A stretch of DNA of 64,000 nt from a cyanobiont of Ornithocercus magnificus (GTDB lineage: Bacteria; Cyanobacteriota; Cyanobacteriia; PCC-6307; Cyanobiaceae): the NCBI GenBank assembly GCA_007996965.1, contig BIMP01000001.1:1364001-1428000 (forward strand). Reading direction: 5' to 3'. The translations under genes and the position numbers were made by a program. The notes beneath the pieces are model-generated. The model saw only the letters and a program-made list of their open reading frames with translations. It did not search any database and had not been told where the DNA came from. Below are positions 3,581 through 55,548 of the stretch, one piece after another. Positions within the stretch are counted from its first letter, which is position 1, and the number at the start of each line of letters is the position of its first letter.

Positions 3581-6213
3581 GGTACTAGATTCACAAGCCT
3601 ACCAGGAACAACTATTACTCGGCTAGGAAGAGATCCCTGGAGCCACTTGTGAGCAATCTCACTACCGAGGGCGAGACGCTCAACTGTCTCACTATCAGAA
3701 TCAATAGGGACATTGATTGATCCCCTTACCTTGCCTTTTACTTGAATAACGATCCTGATGCTCTCCACTTTGAGAGCTTCGGGATCATAGTTAGGCCAGC
3801 ATTGCTGATGGACGCTATCTTCGCCCCCAAGCATCTGCCAAAACTCTTCAGCAAGATGTGGGGCAAAGGGTGCCAAAAGTCGGATTAAGGTGGAGACTGC
3901 TTCAGAGACAACGATATCTGCTGCATCCTCTAATAAGCTGGTAATCGCATTGCTGAGTTTCATCAACTCTGAAATGGCTGTATTAAATTGCATTTTGTCA
4001 CTAAGATCCTCATCAATAGCATATATAGCGCTATGAACAGCTCGGCGAATTTCTCTGTCGTTATTGTTCAGTGCAGAAGAGGCTTTTATGCTAGAAGCCT
4101 TAATTTTTAGGTTGATGCGAGACCTATGAAGAGAACATATCAATCGTCTTAAGCGTTGTAGAAAGCGGTATTGACCCTCAACATCAGCATTATCCCACTC
4201 AAGATTTTTTTCGGGTGGCGCTTTAAACAAGATAAACATCCTAGCAGTGTCAGCGCCGTAACGATTTATGACACAATTTGGGTCGACGCCATTATATTTT
4301 GACTTTGACATTTTCTCGAATAGCACCTCTAACGATTCTCCACTATCTGGATCACGAGGATTATCTGGATCAATGACTTGAGTTGGTGCTACATAGCGTC
4401 CACTTACTGAATTGCGGTAGGTAAGACCCTGGACCATGCCCTGTGTAAGAAGGCGCTCGAAAGGCTCGTTAATTGAAACCAGCCCACGGTCCCTTAATGC
4501 TTTGGTTAAAAAGCGAGCATAAAGCAAGTGGAGGATTGCGTGCTCGACACCACCAACATATTGGCTGACGGGAAGCCAGTGATGGATAGCCTCCAGATCA
4601 AAAGGCATGTCTAGGTTGACCGGATCAGCGAAGCGGAGAAAGTACCACGATGAGCACATAAAAGTGTCCATAGTGTCGGTCTCTCTTTTGGCCACAGCGC
4701 CACAGCAGGGGCAGTCTGTCTTTACCCAGTCAATTTGGCCTCCTAGTGGTGACCCGCTATGGCCAGACAGCCTGACTCCCTTCGGTAATTTTATGGGCAG
4801 TTGCTCTTTTGGAACTGGCAACATACCACAATGGTCACAGTAAACAATTGGAATTGGGCAACCCCAGTAACGCTGCCGAGAGATCAGCCAGTCCCGTATA
4901 CGGTACTGCACGCGCTTACGGGCCCAACCCTTTGTTTCTCCACAGCGCACAATGGCATCTTTTGCTATATCCGATGTCATGCCGCTGAATTCTGCTGAGT
5001 GGATGAGTACGCCTGGTCCACTCCAGACCTGCTCCTCGTAGTTAGGGGAACACAGATTTTCGTCGGTAGGCTGGATTACTGGAAGAATCGGTAGCTTATA
5101 TCGATGAGCAAATGAAAAATCTCGCTCGTCGTGAGACGGTACGCCCATTACTGCACCGTAACCATAATCACCTAGCACATAATCAGCAATCCATACAGGG
5201 ATGGCATCACCTGTAAGTGGGTGGAGGACCGCAGCACCAATCGGTACACCCTGCTTAGTTTTATCTTCCGTTGTTCTATCTTCAAAGCTAAGGCTAGAGA
5301 CGAAATCACGAAATGACTTAACTGATTGTTGATGCTTAGGATCAGTAATAGAGTCCACTATAGGATGGTCAGGTGCAAGTGCCACGTAGCTCACACCGAA
5401 TAGTGTTTCAGGTCGGGTCGTGAAAACTGTGATCTTGGTGCTATTATGGCCGATTATAGTAAAGTCGATCTCAGCACCTCGAGAGCGGCCAATCCAATTG
5501 GCCTGCATGGTCCTTACTCTTTCAGGCCAGCCGTGCAACTGGTCAAGGTCATCTAACAATTTGTCAGCGTAGGCAGTAATTTTTAAAAACCACTGCTTAA
5601 GCTGTTTTATCTCAACCATAGCCCCAGAGCGCCAGGAGCGACCTCCAGAGTCAACCTGTTCATTTGCTAGTACAGTTTGGTCAACAGGATCCCAATTAAC
5701 AGTCGCCTCTTTTTGATAGGCGAGGCCTGCTTCAAACAACTCTAGAAACAACCATTGTGTCCAGCGATAGTAGTTTTCACTGCAAGTAGTCTGTTCTCGT
5801 TGCCAATCAATTGAGAGACCCAGCTGATTGAGCTGGCTACGCATCTGTTTGATGTTGTAACTGGTCCATTCTGCAGGATCAGTTCCACGCTCAATCGCTG
5901 CATTTTCTGCTGGTAGTCCAAAAGCGTCCCAACCCATCGGGTGTAACACCGCATAGCCACGCATACGCTGCACCCGAGCAATCACATCCGTTATCACGTA
6001 GTTTCGGACGTGCCCCATGTGTAGACTGCCCGATGGGTACGGGAACATTGAGAGCGCATAGAATGGTGGTCGTGGATCCTTTAGATCAGGGGTGCGGTCT
6101 AGTTTAATTTGCTTCCAGTAATGTTGCCAATGAGTTTCTAAAGCAACAGGATCGAAGGGATCTGACGGTAGTGTTGCTGCTGCCGTAGAGTGATTAGCTG
6201 GGTTTTCTGTCAT
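3577..6213 (-). CDS. leuS: Leucyl-tRNA synthetase
   Basis: Charges tRNA-Leu (class Ia). At 878 residues it is full length. The HIGH-type motif appears as HMGH in the segment [16 protein letters not shown] near residues 57-72. A zinc-type insertion with CDHCG and CPCCG pairs lies around 470-500, the CP1 editing domain sits between about 230 and 430, and the KMSKS loop reads MSKSK in the last third. The C terminus has the anticodon-binding domain and the small C-terminal beta domain. It faces pgi tail to tail with a 4-base overlap, so any terminator for either gene would lie inside the other. Confidence 0.97.
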
Positions 6214-6870
6214 AGAACAAGGCCTGGGTAGACTAATCGTGTCATATTCAAGGTTGTCTTTGGGTCTAGAGCTACCTTAGATGTGGAGACTAACTCGATT
6301 CTTCTATCAAGCGCTAAAGCTATGCTTTGAAAATTTAGACCAGGCAAAGAAAAATGATGATTAAGAATTGTCTTTAGATTAGTCCACTTTAGCTAGAGCC
6401 TGGAGGGCAGTAAAAATCTAGGCAACAGCCATAACTATCAAGTAGTATGCCCTGTGTCATTAGAACACAGAGAGGTTAGTAAATCGAGGCATAAACAGAT
6501 TAAGTTATAGGTATGCTATACCTTGGTGAGCTATAGGTTGTGTTTATTTATAGTCAGGGGCTTGAAATGATAAGCCTCTCTCGATGACTCAGAATTATTA
6601 TATGAGTAGTTTTTCTTAAGTCGTGACAGTATCTGTGCTTCACCCAACTTGCACTACCGGATCAGATTATAGGACTAGCCCAAATCATTTTGAGTGGCCT
6701 TAGACTAGGTCTTAACTCTCTACAAGGTGCCGAGCTAGTAGTCAATTTAGTAGTTCTGATACTAAAGTAACATCAGAGCTTCCCTAACAATGTCTGGCAA
6801 TCCGAACCTTAGCCGAACCTCAGCCGTCTAGGCAAGTTCTCTACGGTATCAGCTATTTTATAAAGGCTCA
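6214..6870. other. Gene-free AT-rich spacer
   Basis: About 650 bases between the leuS start and a small ORF, read on both strands without finding a protein-like frame, tRNA or strong hairpin. It should hold the leuS promoter near its left end. The length is unusual for a picocyanobacterium and fits gene loss. Confidence 0.5.
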
Positions 6871-7068
6871 ATGGCCCAGCTCAAACATTATTCCCTCTCA
6901 GAACAAAGGTTCAAAATCGAGTCATTGTTCAAGGAGATTGATGCTGTTGAAGATATTGAGACACTAAGATCAATTGCGAAGGAGATAGCTACATCGCGGG
7001 AGGCTCAGAAGACAGCGGTCTGTCAAGCAATACAGGAAATACGGTGTGAAATAGAGACACAATTTTAG
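6871..7068 (+). CDS. Small conserved-looking protein of unknown function, 65 aa
   Basis: A 65-residue soluble, mostly helical, charged protein with many Glu, Lys, Gln and Ile residues and no signal peptide or membrane helix. I do not recognise a named family. It is called because its composition is protein-like (heptad-like hydrophobics, ordinary codon use), unlike the surrounding AT-rich spacer, and it begins with an ATG. It stands alone between 650- and 480-base gene-free stretches. It resembles the small soluble hypotheticals common in picocyanobacteria, but that is an impression, not a match. Confidence 0.6.
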   Translation: MAQLKHYSLSEQRFKIESLFKEIDAVEDIETLRSIAKEIATSREAQKTAVCQAIQEIRCEIETQF

Positions 7069-7551
7069 CGGAGCGGTAATAATTGTCAAGCTTTAGCATT
7101 ATAATTGTCTTATCCTCTAAATTTAAGGTTCCACCAGGTAATGCCCTAGTCTAGGCCAGATACCTTAAATCTAAACCACCTTGCTTTATGATACTACTAG
7201 GTCCTTGAGTAGTGACAATGCTCATACACTTATATTAATTGTCTGCAAAATACTATAACTATTGTCGACCCAAATCTCAGTCTACCAAAACCATAATATA
7301 TAGGTGCCAGTTAGATTTTTGCTCAGCCAGTCGAGTTCGCTCATGATTTTCCTGCTATGATGTACCTTTCCAGGTGATGTAAGTTGAGCTTCTTTAAGGT
7401 AGGCTGAGTGTAAAGCTGCTCGTGAGTGATGTGGACCACCTATAAGGTTGATTTCACCTTTAGAACAGGAGCAGACTATGTCAGTATAAAATGCCTGCTA
7501 ATCTTTGTGAATAGTTTCTCCCCTTATTTTAGACCCTAATCTCTAGAACAA
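7069..7551. other. Gene-free AT-rich spacer upstream of dapF
   Basis: About 480 bases. No credible ORF, tRNA or strong hairpin is seen on either strand. It must contain the dapF promoter, but no clear -35/-10 pair could be assigned. Confidence 0.45.
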
Positions 7552-8487
7552 ATGCTTCAGTTCAGCAAATATCAAGGCCTCGGCAACGACTTCATTATTA
7601 TTGATAATCGTCATGGTCAACTTCCGGCAGTTACCGTAAATCCCGACCCTATCTGGGTGCAACAGTTGTGTGACCGGCACTTTGGTATCGGAGCTGATGG
7701 GCTAATCTTGGCTCTTCCTGGCGGCTTAGACTTTGAACTAGAAATGCGCATATTTAATGCCGATGGTAGTGAGGCTGAGATGTGTGGCAATGGTATTCGT
7801 TGCCTAGCACAGTTTCTGGCAGATAGCTCTGGCGAGAACACCAGTTGTTGCTGGGTGGTCAAGACACTAGCAGGTTTAATCCGCCCCTCCGTACAGCCAA
7901 ATGGCCAGATTCTTGTGGATATGGGTCTACCTTCACTAGAACCACAGCAAGTGCCTACCACGCTCAACCGTGGACCGGCTGGCCTGCCACAGGGTGAGCT
8001 TGTCATTCACGGCACTAAATTAAATATTGCGGTAGTTGGTATGGGTAATCCCCACGCAATTATCCCTGTCAATGATTTAGATAAAATTGATTTCGAACGC
8101 TGGGCGCACGCACTAGAGTCTCATCCTGTGTTTCCAGCACGAACAAATGTTCACTTCCTGAAAGTTCATGCCATCAATCGATTGCAAATCAGGGTCTGGG
8201 AACGAGGAGCTGGGCCTACCCTAGCTTGTGGTACGGGGGCATGTGCAACCTTAGTGGCTGCTGTGCTGCTTGGTCTAGCTACTAATAAAGCTGATGTTAT
8301 GCTACCAGGAGGAATACTTAACGTTAGCTGGCCAGATCGTAACAGCTCTGTTCTGATGTCAGGTCCAGCAGTAGCGGTTTTTGATGGCCTCTTGACACCA
8401 GACCTGGTTTCTACAACTAGAGATGGTCTCACATCAAGGATTACTGCAACTGACAAAAACCTGTTGACTGGGGAACTTGCCAGATAG
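7552..8487 (+). CDS. dapF: Diaminopimelate epimerase
   Basis: Converts LL-diaminopimelate to the meso form for lysine and peptidoglycan synthesis. At 311 residues it is slightly longer than E. coli DapF because of a C-terminal tail. Both catalytic cysteines are in place: Cys78 in EMCGNGIRC and Cys226 in ACGTGACA. The N-terminal GLGNDFI motif is also present. It is the first gene of a plus-strand run (dapF, cysteine desulfurase, DUF1995, DUF4330) with gaps of about 50, 23 and 8 bases, which could be one operon. Confidence 0.96.
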   Translation: MLQFSKYQGLGNDFIIIDNRHGQLPAVTVNPDPIWVQQLCDRHFGIGADGLILALPGGLDFELEMRIFNADGSEAEMCGNGIRCLAQFLADSSGENTSCCWVVKTLAGLIRPSVQPNGQILVDMGLPSLEPQQVPTTLNRGPAGLPQGELVIHGTKLNIAVVGMGNPHAIIPVNDLDKIDFERWAHALESHPVFPARTNVHFLKVHAINRLQIRVWERGAGPTLACGTGACATLVAAVLLGLATNKADVMLPGGILNVSWPDRNSSVLMSGPAVAVFDGLLTPDLVSTTRDGLTSRITATDKNLLTGELAR

Positions 8488-29103: not shown

Positions 29104-30015
29104 ATGACCCCATTAGGCTTTAGGAAGTTATTAAGCTCTGGAAAATTTTTTCCTTTTCCTTGGACTATCCTCAATACCGTGCATAACAAGCGCCTCTGGG
29201 CAAAAGCCCTTCACCGTAGTCGCACTGCTCGTGTCCAGAGAGCACTAATCCCTCTCACTACTACGATCCGGCCACTAGACAGTGCTAGTAGGTCCTTTGA
29301 GCTGCGCTGTCTCTCTGGCATTCCTCCACGCCACTTGCAAGCTGCTGGGCCAAAACCGAATCCTTTTCTTCCATGGAATCCGCAACTTGCTGTTGCTCCT
29401 ATTGGCAACACCCACGTGCTGATCTTAAACAAGTTTCCGGTTCAGACAGCTCATATGCTGTTAATCACACGCCACTGGGCCCCTCAGATTGGCTGGTTAG
29501 AGATCAGCGATTTTGCCGCTTTACTAGAGGTGGATCGTGATACTCAGGGGCTTTGGTTCTTTAACAGTGGACCAGGTGCTGGAGCAAGTCAGCCCCATCG
29601 GCATTTGCAGCTATTGCCGCGCAGCTGTGAAGAACAGATTTGTCCGCGTGCAAGCTGGTTCGAAGATCTCTTGCAAGGCCGGGAAAACTGTGGGAGTTTA
29701 GCAAAGGCTTGTGCTGTTGCTTATCGTAGTATCAATCAGGTCTGTAGCCAAACCGAGACACTGTATAGTCAGTACATTGCACTTGCCTGCAACTTAGGGC
29801 TTGGCGACCCGTTATACGATCGTCAGCCACTTCATCCATATAACCTATTACTGACACCAACATGGGTGGCCCTGATACGACGTCGCCGGGAAGGAGTGGC
29901 AGGATTTAGCGTTAATGCTCTCGGATTTGCTGGCTATCTACTTGCTACTGATTGTTCTAATCTTAGCTGGCTGCTCAAGAGAGGGCCTGAGAATCTTCTT
30001 CAAGAGGTCGTGTAG
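29104..30015 (+). CDS. ATP adenylyltransferase (Ap4A phosphorylase type)
   Basis: HIT-superfamily enzyme that phosphorolyses Ap4A to ATP and ADP. The histidine motif is QPHRHLQLLP in the middle of the protein, preceded by LWFFNSGPGAGAS. The N-terminal part has GPKPNPFLPW and VLILNKFPVQTAHMLLIT, typical of Apa2-like proteins, and the C-terminal YNLLLTPTWVALIRRR. The ATG at 29104 gives 303 residues, but the first 25 look unrelated. A GTG at 29179 may be the true start. It stands alone, flanked by spacers. Confidence 0.85.
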   Translation: MTPLGFRKLLSSGKFFPFPWTILNTVHNKRLWAKALHRSRTARVQRALIPLTTTIRPLDSASRSFELRCLSGIPPRHLQAAGPKPNPFLPWNPQLAVAPIGNTHVLILNKFPVQTAHMLLITRHWAPQIGWLEISDFAALLEVDRDTQGLWFFNSGPGAGASQPHRHLQLLPRSCEEQICPRASWFEDLLQGRENCGSLAKACAVAYRSINQVCSQTETLYSQYIALACNLGLGDPLYDRQPLHPYNLLLTPTWVALIRRRREGVAGFSVNALGFAGYLLATDCSNLSWLLKRGPENLLQEVV

Positions 30016-30317
30016 CCAGATCATCATACACACTACTTAGCACTACTTTAATATGCAAGGTTGATATATACATTGTCACAGCTGCTGGAAGCTAATGATT
30101 ATATGCATATTTTAGCTCAGAAACTATTAGTTTAACGGTTAATCAGTGTTAGATTGACAGAATTAGGTTTCCAATCCTAAGATTAGTGGAGATGGTCTTC
30201 TTATATCACCAAGTACAATATGATATTGACAATTTTATGGAAACCGCTTAGCTTACAACTGCTAAATAAAACTGTGCTAGTTCAGTGACTAGAGGCTATA
30301 GCTGATCATTGGGAGTT
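30016..30317. other. Gene-free spacer between convergent genes
   Basis: About 300 bases between two 3' ends. No ORF, tRNA or clear terminator hairpin was found. Confidence 0.4.
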
Positions 30318-30509
30318 TCATGCGTCAGCCTGATTACGGTCTATCTGGCTCTGAAGCGTGTTGATCGAGGCATCGAGGGCAGCTAGCTGGCGCTCAATGC
30401 CCTCGCGCCAAAATTTGAGCATCTGTAACTTTCGTTTATAGTAATGAATCCGTGACTCTTCGGAAGAGTTACACTGGCCAGAGTAGCCGCAGCAAAAAGT
30501 AGGGAACAT
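30318..30509 (-). CDS. Small helical protein of unknown function, 63 aa
   Basis: After a short Cys-containing N terminus, the segment ESRIHYYKRKLQMLKFWREG and the following RQLAALDASINTLQSQIDR form a charged amphipathic coiled coil. The pattern resembles small conserved picocyanobacterial hypotheticals; no function is known to me. An internal ATG (MLKFWREG, residue 30) could be used, but the upstream part already looks protein-like. It lies downstream of apcD on the same strand, about 250 bases away. Confidence 0.65.
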   Translation of the reverse strand: MFPTFCCGYSGQCNSSEESRIHYYKRKLQMLKFWREGIERQLAALDASINTLQSQIDRNQADA

Positions 30510-30762
30510 AGCTAGCCTTGTTAGCGATCCTATCCTGGCGGATCGGAGCTCTAACTGTGCTGCTTGTCCTTGTAGTTGTGGAATGGTCTGGCGAGACTAG
30601 CCTAAATAATATTACGACATTCTAAGCGTTACAGCTCACTTTTATGACTAAACCTATTAGCTTCTGTGACTTTTTTGCAAACCCCGACAACAACTGATGA
30701 GAGCAAAAAGCTAATCAAGTAACTACGAGTCAACAATTTATTAGCATCTGAAAAGCAAAAAA

Positions 30763-31257
30763 CTAAGTTGGTGTTTGCATGCCCTGAATCAAAAAGTCAA
30801 AGTAGGGTGCTGTGATAAGTTGCTGTTGCTCAGACAGTAAAACAAGCGAGGCAGCCTTCATTGCTTTCATCGCTTCGACCATACCTTGCATAGGTACGCC
30901 TAGGCTATTATACATTTCGCGGGCGCCGATTAAGCCAATCATCTGAATTATCTCAGTGCTGCCAGCGAGCACTCCATATGTGACAAGACGTAGGTACCAA
31001 CTGTAATCGCGCAGACACTGTGCCCGTTGACGCTGACCGTAGGCATTACCTCCGGGTGCGACATATTCCGGTCGGCGACGGAAAAGCTGCTTAGCTGACT
31101 CATCTATGATCTTCTTCTCATTGTCTGTAAGCATGCGCACGATTGACAATCGTGTTGCTCCCTGAGCCAAGTAGCTTACCATTGTAATAAGTTCACCACT
31201 ACTGGGATAACGAAGCTCATCATCGGCCTGTAGAATTAGATCGCGGACAACACTCAT
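30763..31257 (-). CDS. apcD: Allophycocyanin-B alpha-type subunit
   Basis: A phycobilisome core subunit that acts as a terminal energy emitter, favouring transfer to photosystem I. Its 164 residues include the chromophore cysteine Cys81 in the AQCLRDYSWYLRL segment, NAYGQRQ just before it, and VTYGVLAGSTEII after. ApcD rather than ApcA is chosen from the N-terminal MSVVRDLILQADDELRYPSS, which matches the ApcD form (ILQADDELRYP). It stands alone, away from apcABC, as is usual for apcD. Its presence excludes a phycobilisome-less Prochlorococcus. Confidence 0.93.
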   Translation of the reverse strand: MSVVRDLILQADDELRYPSSGELITMVSYLAQGATRLSIVRMLTDNEKKIIDESAKQLFRRRPEYVAPGGNAYGQRQRAQCLRDYSWYLRLVTYGVLAGSTEIIQMIGLIGAREMYNSLGVPMQGMVEAMKAMKAASLVLLSEQQQLITAPYFDFLIQGMQTPT

Positions 31258-31729: not shown

Positions 31730-34180
31730 TTAGCTGCGTGGCTCTGCTCTAAAATGTTGTACTAGTGCCTCGCGAATCTTTTGCTGAATAGGTAACACCT
31801 GGGCATCGGTTAGTGTGCCAGATCCACGAAAACGAAGTCGGTAGGATTGGCTACAGTGACCTGCCTTCAGGTTATCGCTCTCAAAATGGTCAACTAGTTC
31901 CACGTTCTCAAGAAGAGGCTTTCCTGCTCTGCAGATAACCTGGAGCACATCTCCACTAGCAGTATTAGTAGGTACTAGCACAGCAAGATCACGGTCTATT
32001 GATGGCACTGTCGGATACGGCTGAAATACAGGGATCCGGCGATTGCCTCGTGTAGATGCCGTCAGTATTGAATTGAGGCCAAGCTGGAATAGATAGGTTT
32101 CTCTAGGAAGAACCAGATCTTCAGCATAGCTAGGATGAAGTTGCCCGAAGTGCCCACAAACCTGCCCCTCTAGGAATAGTTCAGCGCAACGGCCTGGATG
32201 TAGCAGAGGCGGAGGTGATAGATAGGGACGATCACTGACATCGAGCTTAAGACCAGCCAAGGAGCGCCCAACAAGAGCACGGGCTTCGAAATAACTTAGT
32301 AACTTTAGCTTGCCGCTTCGGCTCCATCGCTCAAGGACTCGTTCACCGCTAATGACTCCAGCAAGTACAGAGTTTTGCCGGATATCATCTGAACTGCCCG
32401 AAAATAAATTGCCAATCTCAAAGATCCAGCAGCCAGATTGGAAAGACCTAAAGTTGCTCTGACACACGCGTAGGTGCTCTTCGTGCAGATCGTTGCGGAG
32501 ATAACCATACTCAGTTAACAAAGGGTTTGAAAGGGGAACCCGATGGTTATCATCTAGGGGTGGGCCCACTAGAGATAGTGTTGAGATCTCCTGAAAGCCA
32601 CTAATAGCAAGAAGTTTACGAAGTTCTCGCTCAGCCTTTTGGCGGGGGTTAAGGCCACCTGGGCCGAGGGTTTTCGGGAGCTTTGCCTCGAAAAGGTTGT
32701 AGCCGACAAGTCGAGCGACCTCCTCAACTAGATCAATCTCACGAAGAAGATCACAACGGCGTGAGTGAGGGATGCTGACCTGCCATCCTTCTCTAGTGCT
32801 ATCAAGAGTACAGCCTAGGGCAACTAGACAGCGCTCAATCTCATCGTCTTTTAGGCTCCGTGGCGTGCCATTGTCTACTAGTAAGCCAAGTGTGCGGTGG
32901 ATCGCCTGGCGCCTTAAAGAGATCGGTGGGAAACTCTCTTCCAAACGGCCATGAACCCAGCGGCCACTAGTGGTAGAACCAAGTATTTCTTGTAGGAGCG
33001 TTGCAGCACGGGCAGAAGATGACAGTGTTATGCCTCGTGGTAGCCCTTTCTCGAAACGAGTACTAGCATCGGTTCTTAGGCCAGTGGAGCGAGCAGTACG
33101 CCGGACAGCAGCTGGGGTAAATAGCGCTGCCTCAAGCCAGATTCTACAAGTAGACTCAGTTACGCGGCTGTCCATTGAGCCCATTACGCCTGCTAGAGCA
33201 ATCGGACGATCATGGCAGGTCACCACCTGCACTTCGCAGTTGAGCATGCGTTCGCATCCATCTATTCCTTTGAAGTACTCTCCGTCATGCGCCTGACGCA
33301 GATTAAAGTCAGCTGCTGAGATAGGACAGTCGGCAAGGCGCTCTAGCGCGTCGGCATCAAAAGCATGAAGTGGCTGGCTCTGCTCAAGCATCACTAGGTT
33401 GGTGACGTCAACAGCCACGTTGACCGATTTAATTCCTGAATGCTGTAGTCGTTGCTGTATCCAGGCAGGAGAAACTTGACCTAGGGTTTGCCCTGTTGGC
33501 GCCTCAATTAGTGAGAGACTGTAAAGTTCCCCACTAGGTGGTCTATTGAGTACTGTTTTTGGGAAATCATCAAAGGGTGGATTGAGCTCAAGACTCGGAA
33601 GGCTCGTCGGTTGATTTGTAAGAGCTGCAACCTCCCGAGCAACACCAATCATTGATAGGCCATCAGGTCTGTTAGCTGTGATTGCTAGTTTGAGTATGGT
33701 ATCATCCAGGCCTAGCAGAGGACCTACCTTATCACCAGGACGTAAGGCTTGAATAGTAAGATTATCTAGAATCGCAATGCCGTCAGACTGGTCTGCTATA
33801 CTAAGTTCAGTAAGAGAACAAATCATACCCTCGCTAACCACCCCCCGCAAAATAGCTGGACGAATAACGAGATTTACAGCAGGCAAGCTACAGCCAGCAA
33901 GAGCAACAGGAACATAGATACCGGTTCTAACATTAGGAGCACCACAAACTACTTGCAGAGGAGTCTCAGTACCCACATCCACAGAGCAGATGCTGAGCCT
34001 ATCGGCTTCTGGGTGCTGCTTGTTCGATAAGATATAACCCACGACAACGCCTTCAGCATAACGGCGCAGATCATCAATCTCCTCAACCTCGAAGCCTGCC
34101 ATAGAAAGCTGTTCAGCAAGCTCCTCAGGACCAGTCTCGACACGCACAAGATCACGGAGCCAGGAGAGGGAGATCCGCAT
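31730..34180 (-). CDS. pheT: Phenylalanyl-tRNA synthetase beta subunit
   Basis: Beta chain of the alpha2-beta2 PheRS, holding the editing and tRNA-binding domains. From the ATG at 34180 it has 816 residues. They include the start MRISLSWLRDLV, an OB-fold tRNA-binding domain (NVRTGIYVPVALAG), the B3/B4 editing region (VAVDVTNLVMLEQSQPLHAFD), the B5 DNA-binding-like domain, a catalytic-like core and the C-terminal anticodon-binding domain (FQPYPTVPSIDRDLAVLV, RLRF). The frame runs to 34243, but the upstream residues are not conserved-looking. pheS is not in the window. Confidence 0.96.
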   Translation of the reverse strand: MRISLSWLRDLVRVETGPEELAEQLSMAGFEVEEIDDLRRYAEGVVVGYILSNKQHPEADRLSICSVDVGTETPLQVVCGAPNVRTGIYVPVALAGCSLPAVNLVIRPAILRGVVSEGMICSLTELSIADQSDGIAILDNLTIQALRPGDKVGPLLGLDDTILKLAITANRPDGLSMIGVAREVAALTNQPTSLPSLELNPPFDDFPKTVLNRPPSGELYSLSLIEAPTGQTLGQVSPAWIQQRLQHSGIKSVNVAVDVTNLVMLEQSQPLHAFDADALERLADCPISAADFNLRQAHDGEYFKGIDGCERMLNCEVQVVTCHDRPIALAGVMGSMDSRVTESTCRIWLEAALFTPAAVRRTARSTGLRTDASTRFEKGLPRGITLSSSARAATLLQEILGSTTSGRWVHGRLEESFPPISLRRQAIHRTLGLLVDNGTPRSLKDDEIERCLVALGCTLDSTREGWQVSIPHSRRCDLLREIDLVEEVARLVGYNLFEAKLPKTLGPGGLNPRQKAERELRKLLAISGFQEISTLSLVGPPLDDNHRVPLSNPLLTEYGYLRNDLHEEHLRVCQSNFRSFQSGCWIFEIGNLFSGSSDDIRQNSVLAGVISGERVLERWSRSGKLKLLSYFEARALVGRSLAGLKLDVSDRPYLSPPPLLHPGRCAELFLEGQVCGHFGQLHPSYAEDLVLPRETYLFQLGLNSILTASTRGNRRIPVFQPYPTVPSIDRDLAVLVPTNTASGDVLQVICRAGKPLLENVELVDHFESDNLKAGHCSQSYRLRFRGSGTLTDAQVLPIQQKIREALVQHFRAEPRS

Positions 34181-34321
34181 AAGATTGCCAGAAGCAGCCA
34201 CAGAATCTAGTGGCCCCGAGGGGATAATCCTCGTGAAAGGCATAGCTTGCTATGCTGAGGTCTAAACTTGCTACAGTTAAGGTCTGTATGATTCGCCCTA
34301 CCACAGCGGCATAGTGCCTCT

Positions 34322-34518
34322 ATAGTTAAGGACAAGGGCGTCCGGATCGAAAGCCACTCTTGAGTGCACAGAATGCTGATCCAAATCCTGTAAAGCGCTC
34401 TCCTAGTAGCTCCCGCTACTAACCACCGAAAAAACGCCGAAACACTGTTGAGAGGATGGAAATCAAAAAATTCTACTCTCAATGCAGCCGGCCAACTCGC
34501 TATAAAGAGATCAAGTGA
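34322..34518 (+). pseudogene. rpmG: Decayed ribosomal protein L33 gene
   Basis: Pieces of L33 can be read in order in three frames over 197 bases, the length of an intact rpmG. They are VKDKGVRI from 34325, where the start ATG is now ATA (34322); TLECTEC from 34356, followed by an in-frame TGA; VKRSPSSSRY from 34390; TTEK from 34422; and RRNTVERMEIKKF running to YKEIK and a TGA at 34516. At least four frameshifts, one stop and start loss make it non-functional. One zinc cysteine is also replaced (FYSQC instead of FCxxC). It lies 42 bases upstream of intact rpsR, the usual picocyanobacterial order. Confidence 0.88.
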
Positions 34519-34560
34519 GACCGAGGCCCTTGCTAACTCACCGACTGTTTTTGATCTATG

Positions 34561-34779
34561 TCTAGCTCCTTTTTCAAGAAGCGCCTATCTCCAATCAGAC
34601 CTGGAGACCCGATTGACTACAAGGATGTTGAACTTCTCAAGAAGTTCATCACTGAACGAGGGAAAATTCTCCCCCGCCGGCTTACTGGTCTTACCGCAAA
34701 GCAGCAGCGTGACTTAACTAATGCTGTGAAACGTGCCCGTATTGTGGCTCTGCTCCCATTTGTCAATCCCGAGGGTTAA
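34561..34779 (+). CDS. rpsR: 30S ribosomal protein S18
   Basis: Binds S6 and 16S rRNA in the platform of the small subunit. The core is intact: [20 protein letters not shown], then [20 protein letters not shown] and ARIVALLPF. The ATG reads in a frame opening at 34558, giving about 72 residues, the usual length. The stop TAA shares a base with the probable ATT start of the next gene. The upstream partner rpmG is a pseudogene, so rpsR must now be driven from within or before that remnant. Confidence 0.95.
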
Positions 34780-36824
34780 TTCAGACTCTGACTGCTCAGC
34801 ATCTTATCACCGGTGACTTAATTGGCGTCCAAGATGGACGTGGCTCAAAGCTTGGAGTTGTAATCTCCGTTCATGGCAGCAGGATCCGATTAAACCTTGG
34901 CTATGAGGGTCGGTTGCAGGTCTTGCCTCTCCGTCAGATTACTCGACTAGCTTCTGTCAACAATGCGCAGTGCCCTCGCCGTATTAGCGACCCACCTTGG
35001 AATCTAGTTAGGGAAAATCTTGAACTACTGCACTCCTCACATAAATCTCGTAAGCAACTCTGGTCCCTGCTGTGCGAAAGTGGTGAGGAGTTAGATCTTC
35101 AGACCTTTGTCGGACTTCTTTACGGACGAGAAGATCACGATGTCATAGCTGCGGCCTGGCTGGAACTTGTCAATAAACCAACTATGTTTCGCATTCGGCA
35201 GGATCGTGTTTCGGCAAGGCCACTGAATGATCTACGGCGATTACAAAAGGAGCGTCGACGCCGGAAGGCAAGTGAAAGACTCGAGAAGGCATGGATGCAT
35301 CTACTGACAGCACCTAGCACGAGGACAGAGTCAAGTACGAATCCTGTATTGCTTGAGCGTTTGGATAAACTTAGGGAAATTGCTTCAGGGCAAGCTGGAC
35401 CTGAGTCTCTCGCACCCGAACTGTGCAAAAGCTTGATGCGAGCTGGAATCGCTGTCGAACGCAATGAGTTGCGTCAGTTTCTCCACAGATGCGGCTGTTG
35501 GGGTGTCCATCAGTTGCCATCATTAGAGGGCAGCAGTTGGTCCCAAGGTTTTGGTGAAGATATCCTTTTAGAGTGTCGGACAATTCTTGAGCAATGTGAC
35601 TCGGAGCACGATAGTGACAAGAGTCGTCTCGATATGACAAGTCAGCGCTGTGTCACCATCGATGATGCTGATACCTACGAGATTGATGATGCAATTGGTC
35701 TTGAAACACGGGCAGATGGATGCCAACGCATTTGGATTCATATTGCAGATCCAGGTCGTTTAGTCCTGGTTGGATCCCTGTTGGACCTTGAGGCACAACG
35801 TCGTGCTAGCAGCCTCTATCTGACTACTGGAAGTTTACCAATGTTTCCCGAGGAGCTAAGCAGCGGCCCCTTCAGCTTACGGGCAGGCCGAAGGTCAGCA
35901 GCGTGGAGCACTTGGGTAGAGCTTGACAGCGAAGGAGATATAGCTGACTTTGGCATACTGCGTACCTGGGTCTGCCCAACCTATAGGCTTAGCTACGATG
36001 ACGCCGATGAGCTTATCGAGCTAGCACCTCCGGAAGATAAAGACCTAGCTGAGCTGGATCAATTACTGGCTCAGCGCCGACAGTGGCGACAGCAGCACGG
36101 GGGTTTATTGATGGAGCTGCCTGAAGGGCGTCTTCGCCAGCATGATGGCAGCCTAGAGGTTGTAATTACGGAACCAGGAGCTTCCAGAAGGCTGGTAGCT
36201 GAGGCGATGATTCTTGCTGGGGCTATCGCTGCGCGGTTCGGATACCAAGAAGGTTTAGCACTTCCATACCGTGGTCAGCCTAAGGCTGAACTGCCAACCA
36301 CATCAGAGTTACAGTGCTTGCCTAGAGGAGCAGTTCGCTTCGCTGCTATAAGACGATGTCTCAGCCGCGGTGTTACGGGGCCAGTTCCCATGATGCACTT
36401 CAGTCTAGGGTTATCTGCCTATGCTCAGGTTACTTCACCTATCCGTCGTTACAGTGACCTCATGGCTCAGCGACAGATCGCTGCGCGACTTGAAGGAGAG
36501 CCGGAACTAGACCCACATGAGCTTCAGCAGCAGATCGACACGATCAACTTATCCTTGCGTGAGGGAATCGCCATTACCCGCGAAGATCAGCGTCACTGGC
36601 AGCAGGTTTGGTTTGCGGACCGAAGTCAGAGTAGCTGGTCTGGGATCTTTCTGCGCTGGCTTCGCTCACAAGATCAACTTGGGCTAGTCAGGATTGAGTC
36701 TTTAGCCATGGACCTGCCAGCAATATGCCCCACTACATCACAACCCGGTTTTAACCTAAGGATTCACGTCAGACAAGCCAACCCATTACTAGACCAGCTA
36801 CAGCTGACGGCGACATCTATATAA
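34779..36824 (+). CDS. RNase II/R-type exoribonuclease (RNB domain)
   Basis: A 3'-5' exoribonuclease with an active-looking catalytic block: TIDDADTYEIDDAIGLE, then RIWIHIADPGRLV, and SPIRRYSDLMAQRQ near the C terminus. No ATG, GTG or TTG fits the N terminus: homologous-looking coding continues upstream of the TTG at 34914 (residues GDLIGVQDGRGSKLGVVIS), back to the rpsR stop. I place the start at ATT 34779, overlapping TAA as TAATT, giving 681 residues; the safe minimum start is 34914. It lacks a clear S1 domain at the C terminus. Likely co-transcribed with rpsR. Confidence 0.85.
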   Translation: MQTLTAQHLITGDLIGVQDGRGSKLGVVISVHGSRIRLNLGYEGRLQVLPLRQITRLASVNNAQCPRRISDPPWNLVRENLELLHSSHKSRKQLWSLLCESGEELDLQTFVGLLYGREDHDVIAAAWLELVNKPTMFRIRQDRVSARPLNDLRRLQKERRRRKASERLEKAWMHLLTAPSTRTESSTNPVLLERLDKLREIASGQAGPESLAPELCKSLMRAGIAVERNELRQFLHRCGCWGVHQLPSLEGSSWSQGFGEDILLECRTILEQCDSEHDSDKSRLDMTSQRCVTIDDADTYEIDDAIGLETRADGCQRIWIHIADPGRLVLVGSLLDLEAQRRASSLYLTTGSLPMFPEELSSGPFSLRAGRRSAAWSTWVELDSEGDIADFGILRTWVCPTYRLSYDDADELIELAPPEDKDLAELDQLLAQRRQWRQQHGGLLMELPEGRLRQHDGSLEVVITEPGASRRLVAEAMILAGAIAARFGYQEGLALPYRGQPKAELPTTSELQCLPRGAVRFAAIRRCLSRGVTGPVPMMHFSLGLSAYAQVTSPIRRYSDLMAQRQIAARLEGEPELDPHELQQQIDTINLSLREGIAITREDQRHWQQVWFADRSQSSWSGIFLRWLRSQDQLGLVRIESLAMDLPAICPTTSQPGFNLRIHVRQANPLLDQLQLTATSI

Positions 36825-52467: not shown

Positions 52468-54363
52468 TTGAAAGCCCTAGAACACAACTGCGCCTGGTAT
52501 CTACCATCGCCATCTGGTTATGATCCTTTGCCAAGACTGCCGCTACCTCTTGCTCTTCGCACAATTCTCTACCGACGTGGCTGGCAAGAGGAAGCAGTTG
52601 AGCAAGAGTTGCTAACATCTACAGCACCCCCACAAGCAATAGATCATTTCCCTAGCCTGAATCAAGTGGTAGAGAGACTAGCAAATGCATGTTATCTAGC
52701 TGAAGAGCTAGCCATCTGCGGTGACTATGATGCTGATGGGATGACCAGTAGTGCTTTGCTCCGAGTAACTCTAGAGTCGCTCGGGGCAAAACCAATAGTA
52801 GCTATCCCTAGCCGGATGGAAAATGGCTATGGTTTAAATACCACGGTAGTTAAGCAGCTACATAAAAGCGGCATTCGTCTTGCTGTAACGGTAGACAACG
52901 GTGTAGCTGCTAACGAGGCACTATCACTTGCACATGCGCTTGGCATAGACATGATTGTTACAGACCACCATGCATTGCCAGAACAGCTCCCTCCGATGTG
53001 GGCATTGATCCATCCAGCGACAACTCCCGCCAATTCTCCTTACAGACCACTCGCTGGTGTTGGTCTTGCCTTTGTACTCGCGTGTTGCTTAGCTGAGCGT
53101 CTTGGACAACCCGAAGCAGTAGCAGCAGCATTAGATCTGTTTTGCATCGGCACAGTTGCTGACATGGCACCACTGACTGGGGCGAATAGATACTGGCTTC
53201 AGAAAGGTTTGGCAGAGCTTCATCACAGTCAAAATCTTGGTCTGGCAGCTCTGCAAAAACTCTGCGGCTTTGGTGAGCGAAAGCTCTATACAGAAGACAT
53301 TGGTTTTCAACTAGCACCGCGGATTAATGCCGTCGGAAGACTTGGAGACCCATCGCTTGTGGTAGATCTGCTTTGTACTAGCGATGAGGGAGAAGCTATA
53401 CGAATAGCCAAAATCTGTGACCGACTTAACCAACATCGGCGTGAGCTTTGTCGTGTCATTGAAGAGGAGGCAATTGCATTACTTGAAGCAGATAATCAGG
53501 GCCTCCCACATTTCTTGATGTTGACCCAGAATCACTGGCACCATGGTGTAATCGGGATCGTTGCTGCACGGCTGTCAGAGCGTTATCAGCTACCGACAGC
53601 ATTGTTAGCCAGTGAAGGCAATGACAGATTACGAGCATCAGTCCGCGCACCAGCAGGATTTACCGTCAATATTGCTCTAAGGTCCTGTAGTGATCTGCTA
53701 GAACGACATGGTGGGCATGCAGCTGCTGGAGGATTTACAGTTAGAGTGGAGCAGCTGTCCCAGCTTCACAGACGCCTCGATACCATTGCGGAAGTCTGGC
53801 TTGCTGGACGGGAAACAGGTTTAGTTCTCAAGCCGGAAGCTCATCTCCAACTCAATGAGGTTAACTGGGAGTTTTTGAGATCGATGGAGCAGCTAGGGCC
53901 TTTCGGACCCGGTCATCCTGTTCCACTATTCTGGTTACGCGGTTGCCACATCTCACGGCAGCGCTGGCTTCGAGGTGGCCACCTTGAGCTTGAGCTAGCA
54001 CAAGGTGGCGTACGTCGGCGAGCGATCGCCTGGCGCTGGCCGAAGAGCAGAATGATTAACGGGGTAATCGACGTAGTTGTTTCACTTACAGTCAGTAACT
54101 GGAGAGGCAAACGAAGTCTGCAATTAGAGATACATGACCTCCGAAGCCATACTTCAGCTCTTGAGTTACACCATGGTGAGAAAGTCTATCACTGCACCCA
54201 CTATGTTGATGATGCTATCGAGATTACAAATGTTAAAGGTGACCGGCTTTTGCTGCAAATCAGCCCTGATGGAATACCAAAGTGTACAGATAGGCGTGCT
54301 TCACACCCCTATGTTCAAGAGCTTATAGACAGGGTAATGATTGGTTTTGGGCTAACTGCTTGA
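52468..54363 (+). CDS. recJ: Single-strand DNA 5'-3' exonuclease RecJ
   Basis: Exonuclease in recombination and mismatch repair. The DHH domain motifs are GDYDADGMTSSALL (about 85-98) and TDHHALPEQ (DHH at 166-168). The DHHA1 domain has GGHAAAGGFTV, with an OB fold at the C terminus. The start is TTG 52468, giving 631 residues; no ATG fits, and TTG starts also occur at tldD and pmbA here. It diverges from the HAD gene across a short promoter region. Confidence 0.92.
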   Translation: MKALEHNCAWYLPSPSGYDPLPRLPLPLALRTILYRRGWQEEAVEQELLTSTAPPQAIDHFPSLNQVVERLANACYLAEELAICGDYDADGMTSSALLRVTLESLGAKPIVAIPSRMENGYGLNTTVVKQLHKSGIRLAVTVDNGVAANEALSLAHALGIDMIVTDHHALPEQLPPMWALIHPATTPANSPYRPLAGVGLAFVLACCLAERLGQPEAVAAALDLFCIGTVADMAPLTGANRYWLQKGLAELHHSQNLGLAALQKLCGFGERKLYTEDIGFQLAPRINAVGRLGDPSLVVDLLCTSDEGEAIRIAKICDRLNQHRRELCRVIEEEAIALLEADNQGLPHFLMLTQNHWHHGVIGIVAARLSERYQLPTALLASEGNDRLRASVRAPAGFTVNIALRSCSDLLERHGGHAAAGGFTVRVEQLSQLHRRLDTIAEVWLAGRETGLVLKPEAHLQLNEVNWEFLRSMEQLGPFGPGHPVPLFWLRGCHISRQRWLRGGHLELELAQGGVRRRAIAWRWPKSRMINGVIDVVVSLTVSNWRGKRSLQLEIHDLRSHTSALELHHGEKVYHCTHYVDDAIEITNVKGDRLLLQISPDGIPKCTDRRASHPYVQELIDRVMIGFGLTA

Positions 54364-55004
54364 TAGATAAATCTCAACGATTAACTCACTCAATTTTTGA
54401 TGTGGCGAGATCTTAACAAGGGCTGGGCTTATTGCCTGCAGACTCCGTTATGATAAAGGTCCTATTAAATCGACTACTTAGTTGCTAAGCAGGTTAGATG
54501 TTGCCTCGAGTATTTTTATTAAAGAGTAGACACCAATTTATGTGACCCTGGTTATATACGGTGCTTGCGGTTAAGCTTAATTGAAATTCTTTCGACATAT
54601 GAAACTGAGATCTCGGCGATTGCATGTAAAAGTTAGAGGATCTCAACAGGTTACTGTCAGAGGTTGAGAGAGTGGCTCAACAATTGTTTTAAATTTTCCT
54701 CATGTTAGTACCTTGGGACCAAACTAAGAATTGATACCTATAGCAGTTAACTTTGGCGGCGTCTAGTAGATTTGGGCCTGATGCTGCTATCCTAATTATT
54801 TAGTGTGAAGATTATCATCCTACTAGTCTAGTATAACTACTAAGCTAAAGAATAAGAATGCAGATGGTGACAGTGATGTTAAGCTAATAATTAAATCAAG
54901 CTGCACGTTAATCAACGTACTCGCGTAATGTAGTTCTTGTAGTGCATGCCTGAAGGGCTCTCTACACTAATTGACTTATGAGCCGTTCCCCATCAGGGCT
55001 TCTT
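54364..55004. other. Gene-free spacer between recJ and psb30
   Basis: About 640 bases between two 3' ends. AT-rich, with scattered weak palindromes. No recognisable gene or RNA on either strand. Because no promoter is needed here, this is a good candidate for an eroded gene. Confidence 0.45.
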
Positions 55005-55112
55005 TTAAAGGGCACCACGGCGGTAGAAGAGGATAAAGATGACAGCAGGGCCAGCGACAGTGATTAGTGCAAGCGCTGTGAAATTAGCGATTAGGTGGAA
55101 ATCAAAACCCAT
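55005..55112 (-). CDS. psb30: Photosystem II reaction centre protein Psb30 (Ycf12)
   Basis: A 35-residue single-helix subunit at the periphery of photosystem II, near PsbE/F. The protein begins [20 protein letters not shown], runs through [12 protein letters not shown] and ends RRGAL, the Psb30/Ycf12 pattern. Too short for standard ORF cut-offs. A TATACT -10-like box lies about 25 bases upstream. It stands alone between two gene-free spacers. Confidence 0.92.
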
Positions 55113-55136
55113 GGTTGAAAGACAGTTCCAGAGCTG

Positions 55137-55142
55137 AGTATA
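55137..55142 (-). promoter_or_regulatory. Candidate -10 box for psb30
   Basis: TATACT on the minus strand ends about 25 bases before the psb30 ATG; the upstream AT-rich block offers no clear -35. Predicted by eye only. Confidence 0.35.
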
Positions 55143-55548
55143 GACTATACCCTGTCTGGGCTATCGGTCCGGCAACTTTGTATGTTTAGAAGCCAGCCTA
55201 CTGCCTTACGCAATGGCGGTGGCAGTGGTGACTTGCCCTAAACTCTATATTAAGTTATCGACATTAAGGACTAGTAACTTGAGGTTACTGTGTTACCTCT
55301 ATTGCAATATAGTATACTCAGATCAGACATTGTCGAATATGGTCTATGTAACTCTGATGAGGAAAACCATGGTGCAATTGTTCATGAACCCACTTAAGTT
55401 AACAGAATTTGTCAATACCTCCAGATGTTGCAACGCTAACGGTTTGTCGCTGCCTCTAAAAACGGGAAGAGCTGAAAGAAGTGTACAATAGCACTTATCT
55501 CACCTAATGTGCTTGGGCTCAATGTATGCAGAACGGCATCTTTAGAAA
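55143..55548. other. Gene-free spacer upstream of the GDT1 pair
   Basis: About 400 bases holding promoters for psb30 (minus) and the transporter pair (plus). A 92-codon frame at 55213 is Cys/Leu-rich by chance and not called. Confidence 0.4.

Follow-up and report, generated by a model that had tools for sequence, protein, structure and literature searches.

Introduction

Paralogous and alternative ribosomal proteins provide the closest described systems for the locus studied here. Makarova and colleagues are said to have described in 2001, by comparative genomics, pairs of C+ and C- paralogs for L31, L33, L36, S14 and S18. Alternative ribosomal proteins controlled by Zur are found in Mycobacterium (PMC5912738), and the regulator also occurs in marine Synechococcus (PMC9337993). 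Gene decay in reduced symbionts offers a further point of comparison: OmCyn, a cyanobiont of Ornithocercus, lies at the base of subcluster 5.1 and has a reduced genome (PMC11150560). We found no paper in the open-access literature on two types of L33 in picocyanobacteria.

The DNA analysed here, which we call the window, is the whole 64,000-nucleotide stretch C1:1364001-1428000 of a draft genome of 1.88 Mb (16 contigs, 95.6% complete, 0.04% contamination). In a tree of PheT and S18 the genome has a near-basal position with respect to the Synechococcus/Cyanobium groups, with no close relative in the comparison set. This position and the 1.88 Mb size would be compatible with OmCyn or another reduced cyanobiont of dinoflagellates, in which case the free-living habit assumed in the original prediction would be wrong. 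We argue that the native, zinc-ribbon rpmG of this genome very likely died because a divergent L33 of 65/66 aa already supplied the ribosome from elsewhere.

Results

A dead rpmG in its native slot

The slot next to rpsR is fixed as the native one by its divergent upstream neighbour pheT (31730..34243, minus strand). It holds at 34322..34518, on the plus strand, a pseudogene of rpmG (bL33) of the ancestral 64-aa, four-cysteine type, identified by alignments and by its profile score. Downstream of the dead gene, rpsR (bS18; 34558..34779, plus strand) is intact, its 73-aa product being 97% identical in marine Synechococcus, and 3' of it lies an ORF for an RNB-type exoribonuclease (34914..36824, plus strand, start codon uncertain), in the same order as in relatives. 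The slot scores 111.7 bits against a profile built from intact native genes, while the best of 300 dinucleotide shuffles gives -0.7, so that the match is not due to chance. A search of a phage collection returned no DNA similar to the native rpmG locus. Elsewhere in the window, three long stretches without ORFs of at least 80 aa (6213-7552, 54360-55213 and 30012-30766) may contain other decayed genes.

The original prediction of a pseudogene beside an intact rpsR, with these coordinates, is borne out: the 197 nt correspond to 192 coding nt, 3 of stop and a net 2 inserted. The start codon has become ATA at 34322, an in-frame TGA at 34377 follows TLECTEC, and a two-indel alignment also puts a TAA at 34420 in frame; the third zinc cysteine is replaced by tyrosine while the fourth is kept. 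The match to the PF00471 profile is confined to positions 13-47, at 27.4 bits, and contains a stop; the ATA start, the stops and the indels leave no intact bL33 frame with a start. Three features place the dead gene in the zinc-ribbon type: the two-residue insert described below is absent, the fourth cysteine is still there, and the alignment score is 196 with 64-aa genes but 163 at best with 66-aa genes. At least four frameshifts had also been predicted. When aligned to 30 intact picocyanobacterial rpmG genes, the pseudogene needs a minimum of two single-base insertions (10/30 references align so), the other common outcome being four bases inserted and two deleted, consistent with four indel events (+1, +1, +2, -2); four frameshifts are thus possible, but two single-base insertions suffice.

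Mismatches fall on codon positions 1 and 2 in 46% of cases in the pseudogene, versus 29% among intact genes, a shift that indicates relaxed selection and, as had been proposed, more than base-calling error. Multiple inactivating lesions and relaxed selection, the hallmarks of a pseudogene, are therefore both present at the locus. It is highly improbable that the gene is really intact and that sequencing or assembly is at fault: single-base indels are a usual fault of assemblies, and two single-lesion cases in relatives (G040 and L107, see below) could be of this kind, but here a lost start, a stop, several indels, a lost zinc cysteine and a relaxed codon pattern come together in a gene whose neighbours are clean. 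That programmed frameshifting or recoding still yields a single protein from the native locus is hardly credible, despite all parts being in order and the last 25 codons open, given the ATA start, the in-frame stop and the scattered indels, and given that the slots of relatives decay otherwise and that an intact paralog exists.

An intact second copy on another contig

Replacement by another L33 copy elsewhere had been among the explanations first offered, and a search of the genome found exactly one other L33, an intact rpmG of the second type at C6:7950-8147. It encodes 66 aa in a full-length open frame without stops (75.1 bits against PF00471, cut-off 25), carries the two-residue insert and has CPQLN in place of CPHCN, that is, no fourth zinc ligand. 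The loss of L33 as such, contemplated in the original prediction, is not supported in view of this gene, and loss without replacement was rejected for the same reason. The C6 rpmG has its nearest relatives among native-slot copies of marine Synechococcus, with identities of up to 97%. Against one 97%-identical relative there are 2, 2 and 30 changes at codon positions 1, 2 and 3, respectively, so that the gene looks constrained, as a working one would. We considered a recent transfer from marine Synechococcus and rejected it, as an old origin explains the data no less well: third-position identity to the possible donors is only slightly higher for the C6 rpmG (0.45-0.64) than for rpsR (0.38-0.55).

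C6 is a 27-kb contig, separate from C1, and possibly a plasmid or an island undergoing decay. Among its genes are those for a DUF3854 protein, an RmuC match, DoxX, a MUG113/T5orf172 gene and a flavin amine oxidoreductase. One could suppose that C6 is a binned contaminant and that drift and genome reduction in a host-restricted symbiont have left the cell without L33. The genome is small and the only member of its genus in the comparison set, reduced dinoflagellate cyanobionts sit at the base of the clade (PMC11150560), and C6 is gene-poor, with ORF densities of 0.42 and 0.29 (L003 and L004) versus 0.84. We nevertheless find this quite unlikely. C6 matches the window in GC content (47.9% versus 47.6-49.0%) and in tetranucleotides (r 0.90-0.92; eight other picocyanobacterial loci reach no more than 0.77), which together with the contamination estimate of 0.04% makes contamination unlikely. 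Also, one survey found L33 in 70/70 genomes of at least 90% completeness, and the same deaths occur in Prochlorococcus genomes that have the second type elsewhere.

Two types of L33 in picocyanobacteria

Replacement by a paralog presupposes two kinds of L33, and both are found. Type A, of 64 aa, has four zinc cysteines (CTEC...CPHCN) and adjoins rpsR in cyanobacteria; type B, in picocyanobacteria, has 65 or 66 aa, a two-residue insert after CTECR and no fourth cysteine, the motif being CPQLN, CPELN or SPQLN. One branch parts the two in an L33 protein tree of low resolution (63 columns), so that CPHCN and CPQLN types form separate paralogs, as in the C+/C- system of L33. Six marine Synechococcus genomes (G004, G060, G211, G253, G286 and G316) keep both types intact, hence the redundancy is not always resolved. 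A query with the second type had no match in 3/197 Cyanobiaceae genomes at least 90% complete. Other variants were also seen: a native L33 of Prochlorococcus (L042, genome G017) has a single cysteine left (CTEA...NPHLN), the most degenerate ribbon observed, and a third variant of 64 aa has CPHDN or CPYDN, the fourth cysteine being replaced by aspartate (L076 of WH7803, L049, L104 and L109).

The missing ligand of type B invites another explanation, in which the second copy is a Zur-controlled paralog for zinc starvation and the death of the native gene follows permanently low zinc. We consider this unlikely, even though Zur is known to control alternative ribosomal proteins (PMC5912738) and exists in marine Synechococcus. 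A palindrome scan of the 220 nt upstream of the C6 rpmG and of 20 other type-B copies found no Zur box as in PMC9337993, so that none of 21 type-B copies away from rpsR has such a palindrome upstream, and the cysteines of L36 are retained. A broader zinc sparing was likewise rejected: L31 is single-copy with one cysteine, L36 keeps its cysteines, and no general shift is seen.

Recurrent death of the native gene

Several Prochlorococcus genomes, some of them partial single-cell assemblies, carry type B away from rpsR. We scanned eleven pheT-rpsR slots that have no intact gene in genomes with type B elsewhere, namely this genome and ten relatives. Nine of them hold recognisable wrecks, each scoring above all of its 300 shuffles and graded from nearly whole to barely detectable: besides the window, G166 (169 bits), G131 (86), G102 (43), G057 (42), G038 (21), G130 (15), G016 (11) and G012 (9), with G038, G057, G102 and G130 being 99-100% complete. 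The profile scores of the remaining two slots (G039 and G041) do not exceed their shuffles. Aligning the locus with relatives thus confirms the lesions of the window against intact genes and finds native slots decayed there too, differently; the loss, first judged unusual, has comparable wrecks in the same slot of many Prochlorococcus genomes. Two further cases, an otherwise clean native 64-aa rpmG with one base missing (L039, in G040) and another with one stop (L107, Prochlorococcus AG-363-B04), might be incipient pseudogenes or single-cell sequencing errors.

Parsimony on the PheT and S18 tree requires nine changes of the dead-slot state, and well-supported branches force at least five of these; the count includes the two single-lesion cases and the two slots without detectable remnant, and it does not tell gain from loss. 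The reverse case also exists: in the marine Synechococcus G244 and G271 (genus g5) an intact type B adjoins rpsR, and the rpmG at the second locus (G244:C15:276035-276199 and G271:C1:281458-281651), a locus common to the genus, is shortened or frameshifted. The window case is therefore one of repeated paralog replacements, and not a single event. A single common locus for all second copies was considered and rejected, as it is clearly common only within g5; the second-copy loci of C6 and G060 have only a DUF2973 neighbour in common, in a different orientation.

The leader of the slot

Dead slots are 319-377 nt long versus 339-372 nt for intact ones, and in 8/11 a promoter-like motif resembling TTGTAGGAT stands at slot position 62-66; in this genome (G000) the motif lies at position 103, unlike in its relatives. 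Length and motif mostly persist, probably because they serve rpsR. Before the old start, at 34285..34321 on the plus strand, comparison with native leaders of relatives identifies the remains of the rpmG leader, with a CGC...GCG stem-like element also found in their intact native slots, and we infer that this stretch would now be part of the leader of rpsR. A search of the slot for RNA families gave a single match, which fell well short of the gathering score.

Where the second type occupies a native slot, a native-style leader still precedes the gene, which suggests that the coding part was overwritten in place. The second copies of Prochlorococcus have a similar leader of their own, in which TTGTANNAT is followed by a stem-like element, TTCC...GGAACT, and then by ATG; it is found in the 75 nt upstream of second copies (L202-L221) at different genomic places.

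Discussion

Replacement of the native rpmG by a paralog would work as follows. Either type of L33 would be enough for the ribosome, so that the redundant copy, whichever it is, would decay. The second copy would be transcribed from its own promoter, and the body of the dead gene would persist since rpsR now relies on its promoter and leader. A lower zinc demand of type B is a possible reason for its frequent win, and zinc sparing would be a natural driver of the replacement.

We further propose, tentatively and as something short of an even chance, that L33 in picocyanobacteria forms a long-lived system of two genes, where a putatively zinc-sparing type repeatedly displaces the zinc-ribbon type, from a distance or through in-place overwriting under the native leader, the dead body being kept at near-constant length as a leader of rpsR. 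If true, this would provide a natural series for timing the replacement of a ribosomal protein in low-zinc oceans. The genes of ribosomal proteins are commonly regarded as stable, present once and inherited vertically; here L33 has been swapped repeatedly, with old copies at stages that go from a single lesion to barely recognisable, upon which the timing of replacement and the question of zinc scarcity can be addressed. In more practical terms, caution is advisable when L33 serves as a phylogenetic marker in picocyanobacteria, and replacement explains why annotation may call it missing or misplaced.

The comparison with known systems is instructive. A recognisable wreck with multiple lesions beside intact neighbours is what pseudogenes of reduced symbionts look like, but here a paralog covers the function, and since Prochlorococcus genomes contain the same wreck, symbiosis is not needed as an explanation. 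With the Zur-controlled proteins of Mycobacterium and other bacteria our case shares a ligand-poor L33 able to replace the zinc form. It differs in that no Zur box is seen upstream of type B, that type B does not share an operon with further alternative ribosomal proteins, and that it is often the sole L33 and hence cannot be a spare for starvation only. The C+/C- pairs are alike in having two L33 types, one with four cysteines and one with a broken ribbon, and in their duplication and lineage-specific loss; unlike them, type B mostly keeps three of the four cysteines and is also found in the native slot, and graded wrecks of that slot occur in many related genomes. The C+/C- theme is thus already known, and the new part is the repeated replacement within one family, with its graded wrecks and a slot of near-constant length.
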